Source: Chitinophagaceae bacterium LGM1
GTDB taxonomy: Bacteria > Bacteroidota > Bacteroidia > Chitinophagales > Chitinophagaceae
DNA: 64,000 bases
Direction: 5' to 3'
Assembly: GCA_018604165.1 (NCBI GenBank)
Contig: CP075895.1
Location: 1,573,501-1,637,500 of the forward strand
Shown: in pieces, positions 6,055 to 10,971 of the stretch
Position numbering within the stretch: the stretch's first letter is position 1
Layout of the letters: the number at the start of each line of letters is the position of its first letter
Notes under the pieces: model-generated
What the model saw: only the letters and a program-made list of their open reading frames with translations
What the model was told of the DNA's origin: nothing
Databases searched by the model: none
Translations under genes and position numbers: made by a program

Positions 6055-6372
6055 ATGGCAGCAGTATATACAGATGCAAATTTTGATGCAGAAGTACTGA
6101 AAACAGACAAACTGAGTGTAATAGATTTTTGGGCTCCTTGGTGTGGTCCTTGTCTGGCTTTAGGCCCAACCATCGAGGCACTGGCAACAGAGTATGATGG
6201 CAAGGTAAACGTGGGTAAAGTAAATGTAGACGAAAACCCTAACCTGTCTATCAACTATGGTATCACCAGCATACCTGCTGTACTGTTCATCAAAAACGGA
6301 CAAGTGGTAGATAAACAAGTAGGCGCAGCACCCAAAGGCGTGTTTGAAAAGAAAATACAATCGCATATGTAA
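6055..6372 (+). CDS. trxA: Thioredoxin
   Basis: A 105-residue cytoplasmic thioredoxin: it reduces disulfides in partner proteins and is recycled by thioredoxin reductase. The active site WCGPC is at residues 29-33 (Cys30 and Cys33), the buried Asp24 precedes it, and the cis-proline is in TSIPAVLF near residue 75. Length matches the family and there is no signal peptide. It has its own promoter and terminator, so it is a single-gene unit. Confidence 0.96.
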   Translation: MAAVYTDANFDAEVLKTDKLSVIDFWAPWCGPCLALGPTIEALATEYDGKVNVGKVNVDENPNLSINYGITSIPAVLFIKNGQVVDKQVGAAPKGVFEKKIQSHM

Positions 6373-6518: not shown

Positions 6519-6606
6519 ACTAATTGGAAGTTAAAAAACATTCCATTCCATGGAATGGAATGCGCTTTGTTTTTAAATGCACTAATTGAGAGTTAAAAAA
6601 TATTCC
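6519..6606. repeat. Direct repeat pair of a 26-bp AT-rich segment
   Basis: Copies at 6519-6544 and 6581-6606 match at 23 of 26 positions. Both begin ACTAATTG, continue through AGTTAAAAAA and end in ATTCC, where a palindrome starts. A third copy of the ACTAATTGnGAGTTAAAAA core lies at 7201-7219, also just downstream of a palindrome of the same family. Confidence 0.75.
6539..6562. repeat. 24-bp perfect palindrome, family 1 copy 1
   Basis: The half-site CATTCCATTCCA is followed directly by its exact reverse complement. To the right comes CGCTTTGTTTTTAAATGC, so in RNA it would look like a stem followed by a U-run. The half-site has the pattern NNTTCCRTTCCR, shared with the palindromes at 7159 and 8201. 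Confidence 0.85.
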
Positions 6607-6622
6607 ATTTCTGGAATGGAAT
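6602..6622. repeat. Degenerate palindrome, family 1 copy 2
   Basis: ATTCCATT (6602-6609) pairs with AATGGAAT (6615-6622) around TCTGG. It looks like a decayed copy of the palindrome 62 bp upstream with one base lost and one changed. Confidence 0.7.
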
Positions 6623-6680
6623 GTTGTTACTTTTCTTTTTACACTGTGGTTAATTGTAAACAAACAATTATCTTAACATT

Positions 6681-6935
6681 ATGAATGTAGTACCTCTACT
6701 ATTTACACTATACAAACTCCCTTTATATCCTATAAGGAATGCAATGTTATTGATTGCTGCCTTTACTATGATTATTACTCTAAATTCTTGCAATCCCAAA
6801 CCTACCACTACTAAAACTTCATCTACAAAAGATACCATGTATAGGGAATACGCACCAGACTCATCCACCGTAACGGTCTATTATATACACAATGGTGATA
6901 CATCGGTATGCAGCCCAATGCGTCCTTTAGAATAA
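6681..6935 (+). CDS. Small putative lipoprotein
   Basis: The frame codes for 84 residues, but Met22 (codon at 6744) is the better start: it begins a classical signal, MLLIAAFTMIITLNSC, ending at the lipobox cysteine (residue 37 of the long form). The mature part is only about 48 residues, rich in Thr, Ser and Lys after the cysteine, with no recognised domain. It sits in the repeat-rich pocket between trxA and mutS2 and is bounded by palindromes on both sides. Short, so the call is moderate. Confidence 0.55.
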   Translation: MNVVPLLFTLYKLPLYPIRNAMLLIAAFTMIITLNSCNPKPTTTKTSSTKDTMYREYAPDSSTVTVYYIHNGDTSVCSPMRPLE

Positions 6936-6945
6936 TTTTAATGCT

Positions 6946-7002
6946 GTTCCAAATGTTCCGTAGGGCATTTGGAACTAAAGATAAACTCCGTTCTCTGAAC
7001 GG
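6946..7002. repeat. Hairpin pair, unit 1 (large then small)
   Basis: Large hairpin: GTTCCAAATG (6946-6955) with CATTTGGAAC (6966-6975), 10-nt loop. After 12 nt comes a small hairpin: CCGTTC (6988-6993), loop TCT, GAACGG (6997-7002). The same two structures recur in reverse order at 7071-7128. Confidence 0.75.
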
Positions 7003-7070
7003 CATTCATTGCACTACTGTTAAATGAAAACAACCTATAGCATAATCCATCAGCAATAGCATTTCAAATT

Positions 7071-7128
7071 CCGTTTACAAAACGGCTCCATATTATTAGT
7101 TCAAGATGCCTTGCAGAACATCTTGAAC
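7071..7128. repeat. Hairpin pair, unit 2 (small then large, mirror of unit 1)
   Basis: Small hairpin: CCGTTT (7071-7076), loop ACA, AAACGG (7080-7085). After 13 nt the large hairpin: GTTCAAGATG (7099-7108), 10-nt loop, CATCTTGAAC (7119-7128). Relative to unit 1 the stems differ at several positions, and every difference is compensated on the other arm. Confidence 0.75.
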
Positions 7129-7158
7129 AGCGGGTTTATGTTCTGAAAAACGTGTTTT

Positions 7159-7197
7159 TGTTCCGTTCCGCGGAACGGAACACTTCTATTTTTAAAA
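7159..7197 (+). repeat. Outer inverted repeat, left copy (palindrome plus T-rich flank)
   Basis: A 24-bp perfect palindrome (7159-7182, half-site TGTTCCGTTCCG) is followed by CTTCTATTTTTAAAA. The whole 39 bp recurs in opposite orientation at 8186-8224 with 37 of 39 matches (counted by eye). The structure resembles a strong terminator reading inwards. Confidence 0.85.
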
Positions 7198-7252
7198 TGC
7201 ACTAATTGGGAGTTAAAAATTAGTAAGGAGTGTTAGGAATGTTTTAAAAATG

Positions 7253-7294
7253 GTGAAGCAACCCCGTCATTTCGACTGCAAGGAGAAATCTCCT
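7253..7294 (+). repeat. 42-bp inverted repeat, left end of the GIY-YIG cassette
   Basis: Begins GTGAAGCAACCCCGTCATTT and ends AAGGAGAAATCTCCT. It matches the reverse complement of 7632-7673 at 41 of 42 positions. Its inner end holds its own palindrome, AGGAGA-AA-TCTCCT. Confidence 0.92.
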
Positions 7295-7320
7295 TAACTT
7301 AGATATACAGCTTAATAAAT

Positions 7321-7614
7321 ATGCACAAAGGGGGCTCTGTTTATATAATGACTAACAAACATCGAAATGTATTGTACATAGGTGTAACGTCCAATTTACC
7401 CGCCCGCATCCAACAACATATATCTCACACTTTCAAGAATAGCTTTACAGATAGATATAATATTGAGTATTTAGTGTATTACGAAACACATTTTAATATT
7501 GAATCTGCTATATCAAGAGAAAAAGAAATAAAGAAGTGGCGTAGAGAAAAGAAAAATGAGTTGATAAACAGTTTTAATCCTGATTGGAATGACTTAACAG
7601 CTACGTTATATTGA
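7321..7614 (+). CDS. GIY-YIG nuclease-domain protein (COG2827/UPF0213-like)
   Basis: A 97-residue single-domain protein. The GIY-YIG signature appears as VYIM (residues 7-10) and LYIG (18-21), giving Tyr8, Tyr19 and Gly21; Arg29 in LPARIQQH and the acidic SREKEIKKW segment (residues 65-73, candidate metal-binding Glu) complete the expected catalytic layout. Family members are small endonuclease-fold proteins whose cellular roles are mostly unknown. No extra DNA-binding domain is present. The gene sits between 42-bp inverted repeats (7253-7294, 7632-7673), 26 bp after the left and 17 bp before the right, giving a 421-bp unit that looks like a mobile cassette. AT content is higher than in the flanking housekeeping genes. 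Confidence 0.9.
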   Translation: MHKGGSVYIMTNKHRNVLYIGVTSNLPARIQQHISHTFKNSFTDRYNIEYLVYYETHFNIESAISREKEIKKWRREKKNELINSFNPDWNDLTATLY

Positions 7615-7631
7615 CTTCATTACTAATTTTC

Positions 7632-7673
7632 AGGAGATTTCTCCTTGCAGTCGAAATGACGGGGGTGCTTCAC
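7632..7673 (-). repeat. 42-bp inverted repeat, right end of the GIY-YIG cassette
   Basis: Reverse complement of 7253-7294 with one mismatch (G for T within the GACGGGG-x-TGC part). The match stops abruptly beyond both outer ends, as expected for element termini. Confidence 0.92.
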
Positions 7674-7690
7674 TCTATCGCCCCATTTGC

Positions 7691-7704
7691 AAACGGGGAC
7701 GAGA
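7691..7704 (+). repeat. 14-bp inverted repeat, left of the EF-Tu domain III-like gene
   Basis: AAACGGGGACGAGA; its exact reverse complement lies at 8119-8132. The preceding CCCCATTTGC (7681-7690) can pair with AAACGGGG to make a local hairpin with one mismatch. Confidence 0.8.
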
Positions 7705-7745
7705 GTGAGAGAGTGATTTCAGTATTATTGAATATAGGTATGTAA

Positions 7746-8108
7746 ATGCAATTGATAGAAAGTAATATGAGAAAACCTCACTTCAAAGTCAGATATCGCT
7801 TCTATACTGAACAAGAAGGTGGAAGGAAAACTTTGCCATATCAAGGTTATAGATCAGACTTTTGGTATGAACATCCTGGTGGTCCAAATTATCTATTTGT
7901 GATACGCCCAGAATTTGAAGATGAGAAAGGAGATTTGATATTAGATAGAAACATACCTGTTCTGAGGCAAGGTATAGCAAGAATGCTCATAGCTTTTGAC
8001 GAAAAAGTACCGTATCACAAAGAACATTTAAAACTAAATACTATTTGCTATTTTATGGAAGGTCCCCATAGGGTAGCAGTATGTGAAGTAATAGAGTTGA
8101 TGTTTTAA
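7746..8108 (+). CDS. Free-standing EF-Tu domain III-like protein
   Basis: A 120-residue protein that resembles only the third (C-terminal beta-barrel) domain of elongation factor Tu. EF-Tu domain III carries EGGR-x-x-P-x-x-x-GYRPQF; here TEQEGGRKTLPYQGYRSDF occupies residues 21-39. The end also matches in pattern: a strand around residues 87-95, then FMEGPHRVAVCEVIELM at the place of the EF-Tu FAIREGGRTVGAGVV strands. There is no GTPase domain or domain II. In EF-Tu this domain contacts tRNA and EF-Ts; the role of the isolated domain is not known to me. Met8 (7767) is an alternative start. The gene is flanked by 14-bp inverted repeats and sits within the outer repeat pair. Confidence 0.75.
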   Translation: MQLIESNMRKPHFKVRYRFYTEQEGGRKTLPYQGYRSDFWYEHPGGPNYLFVIRPEFEDEKGDLILDRNIPVLRQGIARMLIAFDEKVPYHKEHLKLNTICYFMEGPHRVAVCEVIELMF

Positions 8109-8118
8109 TAATCCCTTT

Positions 8119-8132
8119 TCTCGTCCCCGTTT
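8119..8132 (-). repeat. 14-bp inverted repeat, right of the EF-Tu domain III-like gene
   Basis: TCTCGTCCCCGTTT, exact reverse complement of 7691-7704. A CCAATG/CATTGG inverted repeat follows at once (8133-8150). Confidence 0.8.
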
Positions 8133-8185
8133 CCAATGAGGATACATTGGCATACTTTCTCTGACACAAATACTAAAAAATACGT

Positions 8186-8224
8186 TTTTAAAAACAAAAG
8201 TGTTCCGTTCCGCGGAACGGAACA
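8186..8224 (-). repeat. Outer inverted repeat, right copy; probable mutS2 terminator
   Basis: The palindrome at 8201-8224 is identical over 24 bp to 7159-7182. Read on the minus strand it lies three bases after the mutS2 stop codon and is followed by CTTTTGTTTTTAAAA, so it forms a strong stem with a U-run and probably ends mutS2 transcription. Confidence 0.8.
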
Positions 8225-8227
8225 GAG

Positions 8228-10348
8228 TTATTTTTTCTTTTTGCCCTGTGGTTGTTCTTTCTTTTTCACTACTACCCATTCATCTATACTTACGTTAAAG
8301 GGCATTTGTCCTATCTGCACAATGGCTTTTTTGCCGCGTAGCTCTGTGAGCCTGCCTACCTGGTGGTTGTCTTTATTGCGTACCGTATCGCCCACTTTGG
8401 CATCGCCACCTACTACATCGTAGTTTTTGTCGGCTTTCTTTGCCATAGCGGTGTTGGCGGCTATCTGCCTGCGTTTAAAGAGTACATTCTCTGCCGCCGC
8501 TATTACTTCGCCTTTATTGTCTGCCTTCTTCCAGTCGGTTATTATCTGTTTAAACTTGCGCTCCATATCGCGCAGGTAGTCCAGTTCTTCTTTCTTTATT
8601 TTGTTTTGCAGGCGCAGGGTGTTGTATTGCTGTTCTTTCTTTTCCTTATCTATCAGCTCGCCAAATTCTTTTTCCAACTCTTTATTCTTTTTCAGCAGGC
8701 GGTCTATTTCTTTTTCTTTGCTGCTCAATTTTTGGCTTTGCTGCTCGGTTTGGTGCAGCATCTTATCCAGCTTAAAGTGTCCGCGCTCTGTCAGTTGTTT
8801 GGCACGCTCTATAATATGCGGTGGCAACCCGCTACGCTGTGCTATGGCAAATGTATAAGAGCTACCCGGCTTGCCTACCGTCAGTTGGTAGAGTGGCTCC
8901 AGTTTGTCTTCGTCAAAAGCCATAGCCCCGTTAAAGATGCCCTGCACTTTGCCTGCCATTACTTTCAGGTTCAGGTAGTGTGTGGTGATGATGCCCATAG
9001 CATGGCGTTTGGCAAGCTCTTCAACAATAGCCTCTGCAAATGCACCACCCAAGTTGGGGTCTGAACCGCTACCCAGCTCGTCTATAAAAAACAAGGTCTT
9101 GCCATTGGCAAAATCCATAAAGTATTTCATATCGCGCAGGTGCGCGCTGTAGGTACTTAGCTCATGCTCTATGCTTTGCGTATCGCCGATGTGTATCATC
9201 ATCTGCTTGAAGATGCCCACCTCGCTATCGGGGCTGGCAGGTATCAGCAGTCCTGCCTGTGTCATCAGTTGCAGCAGCCCTACGGTTTTCATAGATACGG
9301 TTTTGCCACCCGCGTTGGGGCCGCTTATTATCAGTATGCGTTTGTTTTTATCCAGCGATATATATAATGGTATGGTGGGCTTGCCCTCTCTGTTATTGTG
9401 CAGCAGCAGCAGGGGGTGGGTGGCTTTTATCAGTTCTATATGCGGGTGCGGGCTGAGGCGTGGCATATCTGCCTGCATATCCATAGCCAGCAGTGCTTTT
9501 GCGCGGATGAAGTCGTAGATACCACAAAGGTGATAATACCCATCCAACTGCGGATGCCAGCCACTGAGGGTAGCGGTGGTTTGTGCCAGTATGCGGTGTA
9601 TTTCCCTTGCCTCTGCACGCTCCAGCGATGCTACTTCGTTATTCAGTTCAATCGTTTCTTCGGGTTCTATGAACACGGTGCGTTGCGTGTCGCTTTCGCC
9701 GTGGTGTATGCCTTTTACAATGCGCTTATGCTCTGCAAACACAGCTACTACACGCCTGCCATTCAAAAATCCCTCTGCAATATCTGCCAGATACCCTTGC
9801 TTGTTCAGCTTGCGTAGTACGCTTTCAAACAGCTTGCGCAGCTCTTGCCTGCGGTGTGCCAGTTCGGTGCGTATGCTCATCAACTCTCGCGATGCATTAT
9901 CGCGCACATGCCCCATCTCATCTACAACGGTGTTGATGGTGTCAGTTATTTGTTTTTCGTACTGTATTTTATCTGCCAGCGAGCGCAGGTTAGTAAACAA
10001 CCCCTCGTGGTTTTTAAACCAGTTCAGTATATCGCGTATATTCAGTGCCAGTTGCTGAAAAGCTAATAGTTGCTCGCCGCTAAGTACCGCACCGGGTAGG
10101 GATAGTAGTTTCAGTTCTTTTTCTACATTGCGGGTAAAGTCGTTCGGGAAATAATCGCCACTCATCAGTACCGACTTGTACTCGCGTGTTTGCACCAACG
10201 CCCTCTCTACATATTCTATACGGGTATGGAAACGCAGGTTATCCACCCGTTCGCGGGCGGTATCGGTGCGGCATTTCAATTTCAGTAATTGGGCTACCTT
10301 ACTAAACTCCAAAGCATCTGCAGCGTGTGCAGGGTACAAAAGCATCAT
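8228..10348 (-). CDS. mutS2: MutS2-family ATPase lacking the Smr domain
   Basis: A 706-residue MutS homologue of the MutS2 branch, which lacks the mismatch-recognition domains of MutS1 and acts in recombination control or ribosome rescue in the species studied. The core and clamp regions occupy residues 1-320; Walker A is SGPNAGGKT near residue 343 and Walker B is LFFIDELGSGSD near 424. A long coiled coil rich in Lys and Glu follows (about 530-620), then a KOW-like beta segment ending EWVVV. Full-length MutS2 continues with a roughly 80-residue Smr nuclease domain; here the protein stops after a lysine-rich tail, three bases before a repeat. This may be natural for the lineage or the result of truncation by the repeat insertion. 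Confidence 0.92.
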   Translation of the reverse strand: MMLLYPAHAADALEFSKVAQLLKLKCRTDTARERVDNLRFHTRIEYVERALVQTREYKSVLMSGDYFPNDFTRNVEKELKLLSLPGAVLSGEQLLAFQQLALNIRDILNWFKNHEGLFTNLRSLADKIQYEKQITDTINTVVDEMGHVRDNASRELMSIRTELAHRRQELRKLFESVLRKLNKQGYLADIAEGFLNGRRVVAVFAEHKRIVKGIHHGESDTQRTVFIEPEETIELNNEVASLERAEAREIHRILAQTTATLSGWHPQLDGYYHLCGIYDFIRAKALLAMDMQADMPRLSPHPHIELIKATHPLLLLHNNREGKPTIPLYISLDKNKRILIISGPNAGGKTVSMKTVGLLQLMTQAGLLIPASPDSEVGIFKQMMIHIGDTQSIEHELSTYSAHLRDMKYFMDFANGKTLFFIDELGSGSDPNLGGAFAEAIVEELAKRHAMGIITTHYLNLKVMAGKVQGIFNGAMAFDEDKLEPLYQLTVGKPGSSYTFAIAQRSGLPPHIIERAKQLTERGHFKLDKMLHQTEQQSQKLSSKEKEIDRLLKKNKELEKEFGELIDKEKKEQQYNTLRLQNKIKKEELDYLRDMERKFKQIITDWKKADNKGEVIAAAENVLFKRRQIAANTAMAKKADKNYDVVGGDAKVGDTVRNKDNHQVGRLTELRGKKAIVQIGQMPFNVSIDEWVVVKKKEQPQGKKKK

Positions 10349-10397: not shown

Positions 10398-10730
10398 TTA
10401 TTGTATGACTGTAGCACCTGCTTGTAAGCCGCTTTGCAAAACAGCTTTAATAGCTGGCACTAAAGTCTTCAAAGTATGGTAGGTGTTGTCTGTTGCGTCC
10501 AATACTATTACAGGTATCGGGTATTTGTTGAAGTTTTGTTGATATTGTAAATTCTTATCGAACGTTAGTAATGCTTCAAAGTTTTCTTCCGTCATAGCAC
10601 GCATCAATGCTCCATTTTTCATACTGTTCCAACCCATATCTGCAACAGTATAGACATTATGTTCGGGGAAGTCGTTTTTTAATCGTTTTGGCAGATTTTC
10701 GTCAAGCAGTAGTTTCATAGAGTTGTTCAA
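10398..10730 (-). CDS. DUF5615 PIN-like toxin candidate
   Basis: A 110-residue PIN-like domain protein. The N-terminal strand LLLDENLP with the first catalytic aspartate, and ALLTFDKN in the middle with the second, are the typical DUF5615 pattern. Met5 (codon at 10718, MKLLLDENLP) is the more usual start. It overlaps the end of the upstream DUF433 gene by 13-29 bp depending on the start, implying translational coupling. DUF433-DUF5615 pairs are predicted toxin-antitoxin modules with RNase-like toxins. It lies between mutS2 and the antitoxin on the same strand. Confidence 0.85.
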   Translation of the reverse strand: MNNSMKLLLDENLPKRLKNDFPEHNVYTVADMGWNSMKNGALMRAMTEENFEALLTFDKNLQYQQNFNKYPIPVIVLDATDNTYHTLKTLVPAIKAVLQSGLQAGATVIQ

Positions 10731-10971
10731 TGTTACGGGCAGTAAATATCTTTTCTGCCATTTCCAATACCGCTACCGCCTGTGAATGTGTTACAGAAGG
10801 GAAATCTTCCAAAAATTCATCTAAAGCCAATCCTTTTTCAAGATGCGCAAATAGGGTAGTAACTGGTACACGCGTCCCTTTAAAAACAGGTTGTCCGTTT
10901 TGTATCTCTGCATCAATGGTTATATAATCGCGTACACTTGCCATATCAACAAATTTAATACTTTCTGCCAA
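10702..10971 (-). CDS. DUF433 antitoxin candidate
   Basis: An 89-residue DUF433 protein with the family hallmark G-x-P-V-[F]-KGTRVPV (residues 26-36) and a C-terminal helix-turn-helix-like region (SVTHSQAVAVLEMAEK). DUF433 proteins are small winged or helical DNA-binding proteins, thought to serve as the antitoxin and autoregulator of PIN-like DUF5615 toxins. It comes first in the two-gene unit and overlaps its partner, as usual for antitoxins. Divergent from the DUF4175 gene (75-bp gap), which should contain both promoters. Confidence 0.85.
   Translation of the reverse strand: MAESIKFVDMASVRDYITIDAEIQNGQPVFKGTRVPVTTLFAHLEKGLALDEFLEDFPSVTHSQAVAVLEMAEKIFTARNIEQLYETTA

Follow-up and report, generated by a model that had tools for sequence, protein, structure and literature searches.

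A small GIY-YIG nuclease gene between CGTC-type palindromic repeats, a probable repeat-bounded element beside mutS2 in Chitinophagaceae bacterium LGM1

The window analysed here is a stretch of 64,000 nucleotides from Chitinophagaceae bacterium LGM1 (assembly GCA_018604165.1, contig CP075895.1, positions 1,573,501 to 1,637,500), a genome available as a single contig of 3.32 Mb. Between trxA (6055-6372) and mutS2 (8228-10348, minus strand) lies a 1,066-bp segment, which holds a gene for a 97-residue GIY-YIG nuclease enclosed by two inverted copies of a short repeat similar to the CGTC-type repetitive extragenic palindromes (REPs). The coupling of this one GIY-YIG subfamily to CGTC-type repeats, down to one base, is strong, specific and widespread. 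We put at roughly 0.7 the probability that the inner unit is an element bounded by REPs and that its small nuclease recognises the flanking CGTC-type REPs, making it a counterpart of what the REP-associated tyrosine transposase (RAYT) is for GTAG REPs. With somewhat less assurance, we favour a broader reading in which single-domain GIY-YIG nucleases drive REP-bounded elements in Bacteroidota and other phyla and would be the dedicated enzyme of the whole CGTC superfamily, Neisseria dRS3 included. One base of the repeat, N2 in GTCAT-N1-N2-CGA, would then be read by nuclease residues 72-73 through an evolved code (K-W for T, G-W for C, x-G for a purine). In window coordinates, the unit comprises:

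7265..7661, no strand: proposed mobile unit, from REP tag to REP tag, with edges set by analogy with the Chryseobacterium unit
7253..7297, plus strand: left inverted repeat with a CGTC-type REP (tag CGTC at 7265-7268; stem ATTTC at 7269-7273 and GAAAT at 7285-7289)
7321..7614, plus strand: GIY-YIG nuclease gene, 97 aa, single domain, Pfam PF01541
7534..7539, plus strand: codons for K72-W73, the residues that track repeat base N2
7629..7673, minus strand: right inverted repeat with a second CGTC-type REP in opposite orientation (tag ends at 7661)

Should the 12 bp outside each tag also be part of it, the unit would extend over 7253-7673. In genome coordinates, the left REP site is at 1580766 and the right one at 1581135-1581160 on the minus strand.

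The protein belongs to the GIY-YIG family with an expectation value (E) of 8.8e-15 for PF01541 (55.2 bits, against a cut-off of 22.6). Its other Pfam matches, to T5orf172 and DUF123, are weak, and none is to an HUH tyrosine transposase. Eleven columns are invariant in an alignment of 31 rows, among them Y8, Y19, G21, R29 and E67. The AlphaFold model has a mean predicted local distance difference test score of 95.8, and its nearest solved folds are UPF0213 (1zg2, E 8.8e-4), Slx1 (E 0.05-0.1) and the UvrC domain. Two other roles were considered for the gene and rejected: that of a defence system, since the PADLOC matches are weak and partial (UzuA, E 1.6e-4 over residues 7-36; PDC-S14, E 0.0037), and that of phage cargo, since a comparison with 50,697 phage records at E 1e-5 gave no match to the window nuclease.

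The inner repeat is dispersed: with up to three mismatches it occurs at 9 sites of the genome, 2 of them at this locus, and the reversed-pattern control occurs at none. Gene-less copies form an inverted pair at locus L009 (L and G numbers are our labels for loci and genomes) and an inverted pair with a variant partner at L006. At L004 (C1 1693520-1693707), a tandem duplication with a spacing of 162 bp includes a gene-less repeat together with the DNA around it. The same genome has a second member of the nuclease subfamily (L193, C1:2057218-2057508), and the inverted repeats on its two sides form a pair of a different subtype, AGTCATGGCGA.

Bacterial palindromic repeats include two large superfamilies. 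The CGTC REPs make up one of them, and their mode of spread was left open in 2013 (PMC3733652). In the text of that paper, they are defined by a CGTC tag, often TGTC, an 8-9-bp stem nearly always starting with AT, a 4-5-nt loop and mostly a CCA tail; they are known from five phyla, include Neisseria dRS3 and Rickettsia RPE-4 and RPE-6 (PMC3733652, Di Nocera et al. 2013) and "apparently lack a dedicated transposase" (PMC3733652). The canonical form is taken here as this text describes it.

Tag and AT stem start are both found in the window copies; across loci, the base preceding GTC is T in 321 cases, C in 203, A in 52 and G in 33. The stem and loop of canonical size are found in the printed repeats of Sinorhizobium meliloti, Neisseria gonorrhoeae, Aeromonas, L099 and L103. 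The window copy has five perfect pairs; folded as a single strand, it gave no stable hairpin of the canonical shape, and such a structure was rejected for it. It ends in CTC, the commonest tail of the survey (167 hairpins, with CCA in 43). Its copies are dispersed and mostly in inverted pairs. By these features, the window repeat is a variant CGTC-type REP.

Canonical forms adjoin the nuclease gene elsewhere. A plasmid collection holds 33 records with the subfamily, and 12 of its 15 listed loci were examined: a hairpin lies within 400 bp of the gene in 10 of the 12 and on both sides in 8, or in 11 and 9, respectively, if an AC start is allowed. Canonical CGTC...CCA repeats stand on both sides of the gene in Rhizobium, Shinella, Neorhizobium and Aeromonas. 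In N. gonorrhoeae, both sides of the gene carry repeats which we take to be of the dRS3 type. Among the PMC matches listed, with preprints on bioRxiv outside the scope, no paper links the nuclease subfamily to REPs; in the passages of PMC9465073, the one paper with both GIY-YIG and REP or RAYT terms, the two are given as separate genes.

The association was measured in three sets of loci. The family set contains 63 of 66 subfamily matches down to E 2.7e-16 (one with internal stops and two others were omitted), and 27 weaker GIY-YIG matches from the same bacterial family serve as a distant control. The named set contains the best 80 of at least 567 confirmed candidates from a scan of GTDB species genomes. 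The phylum set is a non-random one of 29 search matches, the window's own excluded, and 60 picked from multi-match genomes; 88 of these 89 loci were used, L238 being dropped for lack of a central match. Within the phylum, the subfamily occurs in 192 of 395 sampled genomes.

An unbiased comparison of 8-mers between near and far flanks of the 80 named loci gave top words that come mainly from one repeat, GTCATTGCGAGGAACGAAGCAATCT; one such 8-mer occurs at 37 of the 80 loci, against 1.4 expected. The motif lies within 400 bp of the gene in 46 of 63 family loci and 66 of 80 named loci, compared with 0 of 27 distant GIY-YIG loci and 2 of 29 mutS-family loci. A hairpin rule, which demands the tag and a hairpin with no assumed inner sequence, is satisfied at 47/63 family, 73/80 named and 68/88 phylum loci, and at 1/29 mutS-family loci. 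Together, motif or hairpin is found within 400 bp at 214 of the 231 loci (63 + 80 + 88, sets that may overlap in species) and on both sides at 163.

The signal is centred on the nuclease gene itself. Among the named loci, the motif accompanies 60 of 72 nuclease genes (both sides in 45) and 17 of 172 other open reading frames (both sides in 1); for the hairpin rule, the figures are 66 of 72 (45) and 35 of 172 (3). The signal is at its maximum within 200 bp of the gene and has faded by about 800 bp. Where repeats stand on both sides, the nearest flanking pair faces inward in 19 of 32 and 23 of 48 loci. On the scale of genomes, the median motif density is 3.67/Mb in the 49 of 147 family genomes that bear the gene (a nuclease match at E 1e-15 or better) and 0.67/Mb in the 98 without it (p 3.5e-8, kinship ignored), and a reversed control motif gives no difference (p 0.85). 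At eight loci (L022, L024, L033, L034, L036, L037, L040 and L045), GIY-YIG genes were seen inside arrays of CGTC-type repeats with a period of about 90-200 bp.

The repeat also varies together with the protein. Residues 72-73, which by the alignment and the AlphaFold model lie at the end of the helix bearing the invariant Glu67, were compared with base N2. The discovery loci have a site in 112 of 143 cases: K-W goes with T in 28 of 36, G-W with C in 12 of 13 and x-G with G in 47 of 50, and 13 loci have other residues. In the 88 loci outside the discovery of the rule, x-G is paired with G in 23 and A in 6 (4 without a site), K-W with T in 6, C in 1 and a tie in 1 (18 without a site), and G-W with C in 4 and G in 1 (6 without a site). 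When the loci are pooled by residue 73, 146 of the 231 have Trp or Gly there together with a majority base at N2 (11 with other residues were set aside); Trp is found with a pyrimidine in 67 of 69 cases and Gly with a purine in 77 of 77. We infer that residues 72-73 may contact base N2.

Proof of this covariation by phylogenetically independent pairs failed for want of supported branches, the tree of a 97-residue protein being poorly supported; the main argument is hence the comparison within genomes. Ten genomes carry both Trp73 and Gly73 paralogues, counting the paralogues sampled here and dropping those without a strict site, and in nine the proteins and repeats pair as predicted (G100, G094, G132, G144, G440, G528, G245, G302 and G232). 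Six of the ten lie outside the discovery set, five of them concordant. In G123, K-W/T and G-W/C paralogues separate in the predicted manner.

Signs of mobility are seen in Chryseobacterium. In six of the seven genomes compared (L072, L057, L066, L073, L074 and L088), the unit occupies one site, between genes for a 171-residue and a 100-residue protein, which we take from their printed sequences to be ribonuclease-like and barstar-like. In the seventh, C. gilvum (L116), it lies on the other strand about 5 kb from the unit-free site; its homology starts at GTCATTGCG and stops at CGCAATGAC, the outer ends of both repeats. In C. gilvum and in Kaistella gelatinilytica, the two flanking genes are adjacent and the unit is absent; the C. 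gilvum homology to the occupied site in L057 resumes past a 22-bp gap. From homology edges at the repeat ends and from unit-free sites, it follows that the moving block in Chryseobacterium is REP-gene-REP. In each case, the difference may be either a gain or a loss. In Flavobacterium too, the gene is found at differing sites (L127 compared with others, for example). As a side observation, the unit separates the ribonuclease-like from the barstar-like gene in six Chryseobacterium species, and a toxin-immunity-type pair is possibly affected by it.

We infer that the nuclease may both cut and spread CGTC-type repeats. In the mechanism that we propose, it would recognise the REPs on both sides of its own gene and cut the repeat at its GTC-AT end or close to it. 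Cutting would probably take place on a folded inverted pair or a folded single strand, an idea that we owe to the presence of Slx1, which acts on branched DNA, among the nearest solved folds. The REP-gene-REP block and gene-less REP pairs would then be inserted at new places.

It is also conceivable, though unlikely, that the nuclease serves the host or regulates itself, binding or cutting CGTC repeats in recombination or DNA uptake or to control its own gene, while the repeats spread by other means. In its favour are the specific recognition that the residue-base covariation supports and the constancy of the site in six of seven Chryseobacterium genomes; RAYTs too are often single-copy and stable. 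This explanation is at odds with the homologous unit that ends exactly at the repeat tags, with the existence of unit-free sites and with the higher number of motifs in gene-bearing genomes.

Slightly less probable is a homing endonuclease for which the REPs are homing sites that are cut, the gene being copied in by repair. Free-standing GIY-YIG homing endonucleases are a known kind (the match to PHROG 5123 has an E of 1.6e-6), and the gene does sit inside an inverted REP pair. With 97 residues, however, the protein has no room for an extra DNA-binding domain, and by reading of the two unit-free sites in C. gilvum and Kaistella gelatinilytica no GTCAT repeat is present at either, an absence more in keeping with transposition-like insertion than with homing into repeats already there.

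Hitch-hiking, the collection of REPs in permissive intergenic DNA where the gene happens to be, is very improbable. It draws on the occurrence of the motif genome-wide in 134 of 147 family genomes, but intergenic motif density is about 22-fold higher beside the gene (6.39/kb) than far from it (0.284/kb), and the motif is lacking at all the distant GIY-YIG loci. Moreover, the fit of repeat type to protein within single genomes makes simple hitch-hiking unlikely and implies direct recognition.

Several observations weigh against the REP-bounded element and its code. Cutting or movement by the nuclease has not been observed. As single-stranded DNA, the window repeat forms a poor hairpin (z -0.62 for 29 nt), and a 40-nt version folds better (z -2.10) through other pairs. 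The exact edges come from one relocated unit (L116), only about 5 kb away; homology edges in Flavobacterium do not fall on repeats at both ends, and no target duplication is evident by eye at the aligned Chryseobacterium edges. Among the validation loci, the strict motif is missing in 39 of 88, including 18 of 26 in the K-W class; many of these bear other GTCAT hairpins. The tie of K72 to T over C is looser, with C in 8 of 42 K-W loci. Covariation also follows clades, the supported branches yielding only three independent pairs, of which, in the usual pairing, two agree, none opposes and one shows no difference, and one paralogue genome of the ten (G351) is discordant.

On the side of the association, the distant GIY-YIG control gives 6 of 27 by the hairpin rule. 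The three canonical copies in S. meliloti lie on one side of the gene only; Novosphingobium has no such hairpin near the gene even by the rule allowing an AC start, and in Photobacterium hairpins are more numerous far from the gene (7) than close to it (2). The median motif density of gene-bearing genomes barely exceeds that of the reversed control (3.2/Mb), and the motif surpasses this control in 26 of 49 gene-bearing and 17 of 98 gene-less genomes. Several family genomes without a strong nuclease match are rich in CGTCATTNCGA (among them G064 with 69 sites, G133 with 42 and G037 with 26); the nuclease may have been lost or have diverged there.

The other features of the locus are not part of the element. 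They are an EF-Tu domain III-like gene, two related perfect palindromes in three copies and a third, short inverted pair:

6539..6562, no strand: perfect 24-nt palindrome A, related to B
7159..7182, no strand: perfect 24-nt palindrome B, left copy of the outer pair, T-rich to its right
7687..7704, no strand: third pair, left arm, inside a local palindrome (partner 8119-8136)
7746..8108, plus strand: EF-Tu domain III-like gene, an independent neighbour outside the mobile unit
8119..8136, no strand: third pair, right arm (partner 7687-7704)
8201..8224, no strand: perfect 24-nt palindrome B, right copy, just past the mutS2 stop codon, T-rich on the mutS2-downstream side

A preliminary description of this DNA had stated that three inverted-repeat pairs bound the segment, and all three were found. 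The outer pair (7159-7197/8186-8224), given as matching at 37 of 39 positions, was remeasured at 39 nt and 95%. The other two are real and longer than stated: the inner pair, given as 42 bp, covers 7253-7297/7629-7673 (45 nt, 96%), and the third, given as 14 bp, covers 7687-7704/8119-8136 (18 nt, 94%).

The same description saw these pairs as a nested cassette. The nesting holds for this genome; a single cassette was rejected, the outer arms being of palindrome type and the EF-Tu-like gene being found without the nuclease. Of the small non-autonomous mobile units that it proposed, mobility is retained for the inner one; having a nuclease gene of its own, that unit cannot clearly be called non-autonomous. 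No further copies of the third pair rise above control level in the genome, and it was rejected as a dispersed family. A known RNA was likewise rejected, since Rfam at gathering scores gives nothing in the window except one tRNA.

Because both outer arms are perfect palindromes of 24 nt, each is bound to be an inverted repeat of the other, as holds for any two such copies. The window has three palindromes of at least 20 nt, against a mean of 0.25 in 20 mononucleotide shuffles. With up to two mismatches, the motif has three sites in the genome, all within this locus; it occurs in 6 of 15 species of the genus with 3-5 clustered copies each, and the cluster stands at the 3' end of mutS2 in G149, G150, G152 and G153. 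From the T-rich sequence on one side of each copy, the B palindromes could possibly be terminators. More widely, perfect palindromes of 22-30 nt of one family (TTCCATTCCATGGAATGGAA / TTCCGTTCCGCGGAACGGAA) form one clustered locus per genome (window 6539-8224; L222 in G149, L223 in G150, L225 in G152, L344 in G153 and L343 in G148) and adjoin different single genes in different species. One such gene lies near mutS2 in G152 and G153 (38-41% identity to the G148 copy); in G148 it is located elsewhere, which gives the impression that palindromes and gene moved jointly.

The likeness of the neighbouring gene product to EF-Tu domain III is weak: a PDB profile matches EF-Tu with an E of 0.013, resting mainly on residues 7-42; the window copy has no match in Pfam, and one of five homologues matches PF03143, below its cut-off, with an E of 0.11. 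The gene is rare, sporadic and stand-alone, in 4 of 147 family genomes and 7 of 395 phylum genomes. Close homologues adjoin mutS2 in two relatives, G149 (identity 82%) and G150 (identity 66%), where the nuclease is absent, and neither nuclease nor GTCATNNCGA repeat was found at any of nine distant loci, in the 2-3.4 kb examined at each. The gene is a neighbour of the nuclease, not a partner, and a shared function of the two proteins was rejected on these grounds. The least probable explanation of all is therefore the composite of the preliminary description, one module of three nested units with nuclease and EF-Tu-like protein acting jointly: the three repeat pairs are indeed nested in this genome, but the EF-Tu-like gene occurs without the nuclease, and the outer arms are local palindromes found in relatives beside other genes.

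This local comparison is based on the mutS2 flank and the EF-Tu-like gene, not on the trxA-mutS2 gap as such; neither trxA nor the C-terminal part of dnaE was found within about 4.7 kb of mutS2 in 14 relatives. The nuclease adjoins the 3' flank of mutS2 in one of 15 species of the genus, the window's own. In G149, about 130 bp take the place of the window's roughly 490 bp with the unit, in an alignment on short flanks only. On the other side of mutS2, at 10398-10971, two adjoining small minus-strand genes presumably resemble a toxin-antitoxin pair.

Should the REP-bounded element be confirmed, the missing enzyme for the spread of one large bacterial repeat class, the CGTC REPs, would be at hand, and with it a prokaryotic element whose only protein is a GIY-YIG nuclease. 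A partnership of one protein with one repeat makes the spread of CGTC REPs directly testable in vitro, and the residue-base covariation offers a simple system for DNA choice by GIY-YIG nucleases. The common annotation "GIY-YIG nuclease family protein" would also be given meaning.

Among known systems, the CGTC REPs share with the window repeat the CGTC/TGTC tag, the AT stem start and the inverted pairs, and canonical CCA-tailed members adjoin the nuclease in several phyla; the window copy differs in its 5-bp perfect stem and the lack of a CCA tail, and no dedicated enzyme is reported in the text of PMC3733652. Insertion sequences and miniature inverted-repeat transposable elements likewise have terminal inverted repeats and gene-less short copies, but no transposase of the DDE, HUH, tyrosine or serine kind is encoded in the unit, and target duplications were not seen. 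Free-standing GIY-YIG homing endonucleases (phage Seg-like, PHROG 5123) have the same fold and a probable selfish spread, whereas the window protein is a single 97-residue domain between dispersed inverted repeats. The single-domain UPF0213 and Slx1 nucleases, the closest in solved fold, are host genes. The nearest parallel is with RAYT (TnpA-REP) and the GTAG REPs (REPtron, REPIN), where a small gene also lies between inverted REPs and gene-less REP pairs are found elsewhere in the genome. The enzyme here is a GIY-YIG nuclease and not an HUH tyrosine transposase, and the bounding inverted REPs are of CGTC and not of GTAG type; because enzyme and repeat class both differ, the unit is not a member of the RAYT-GTAG system, which by analogy it appears to resemble in its working.

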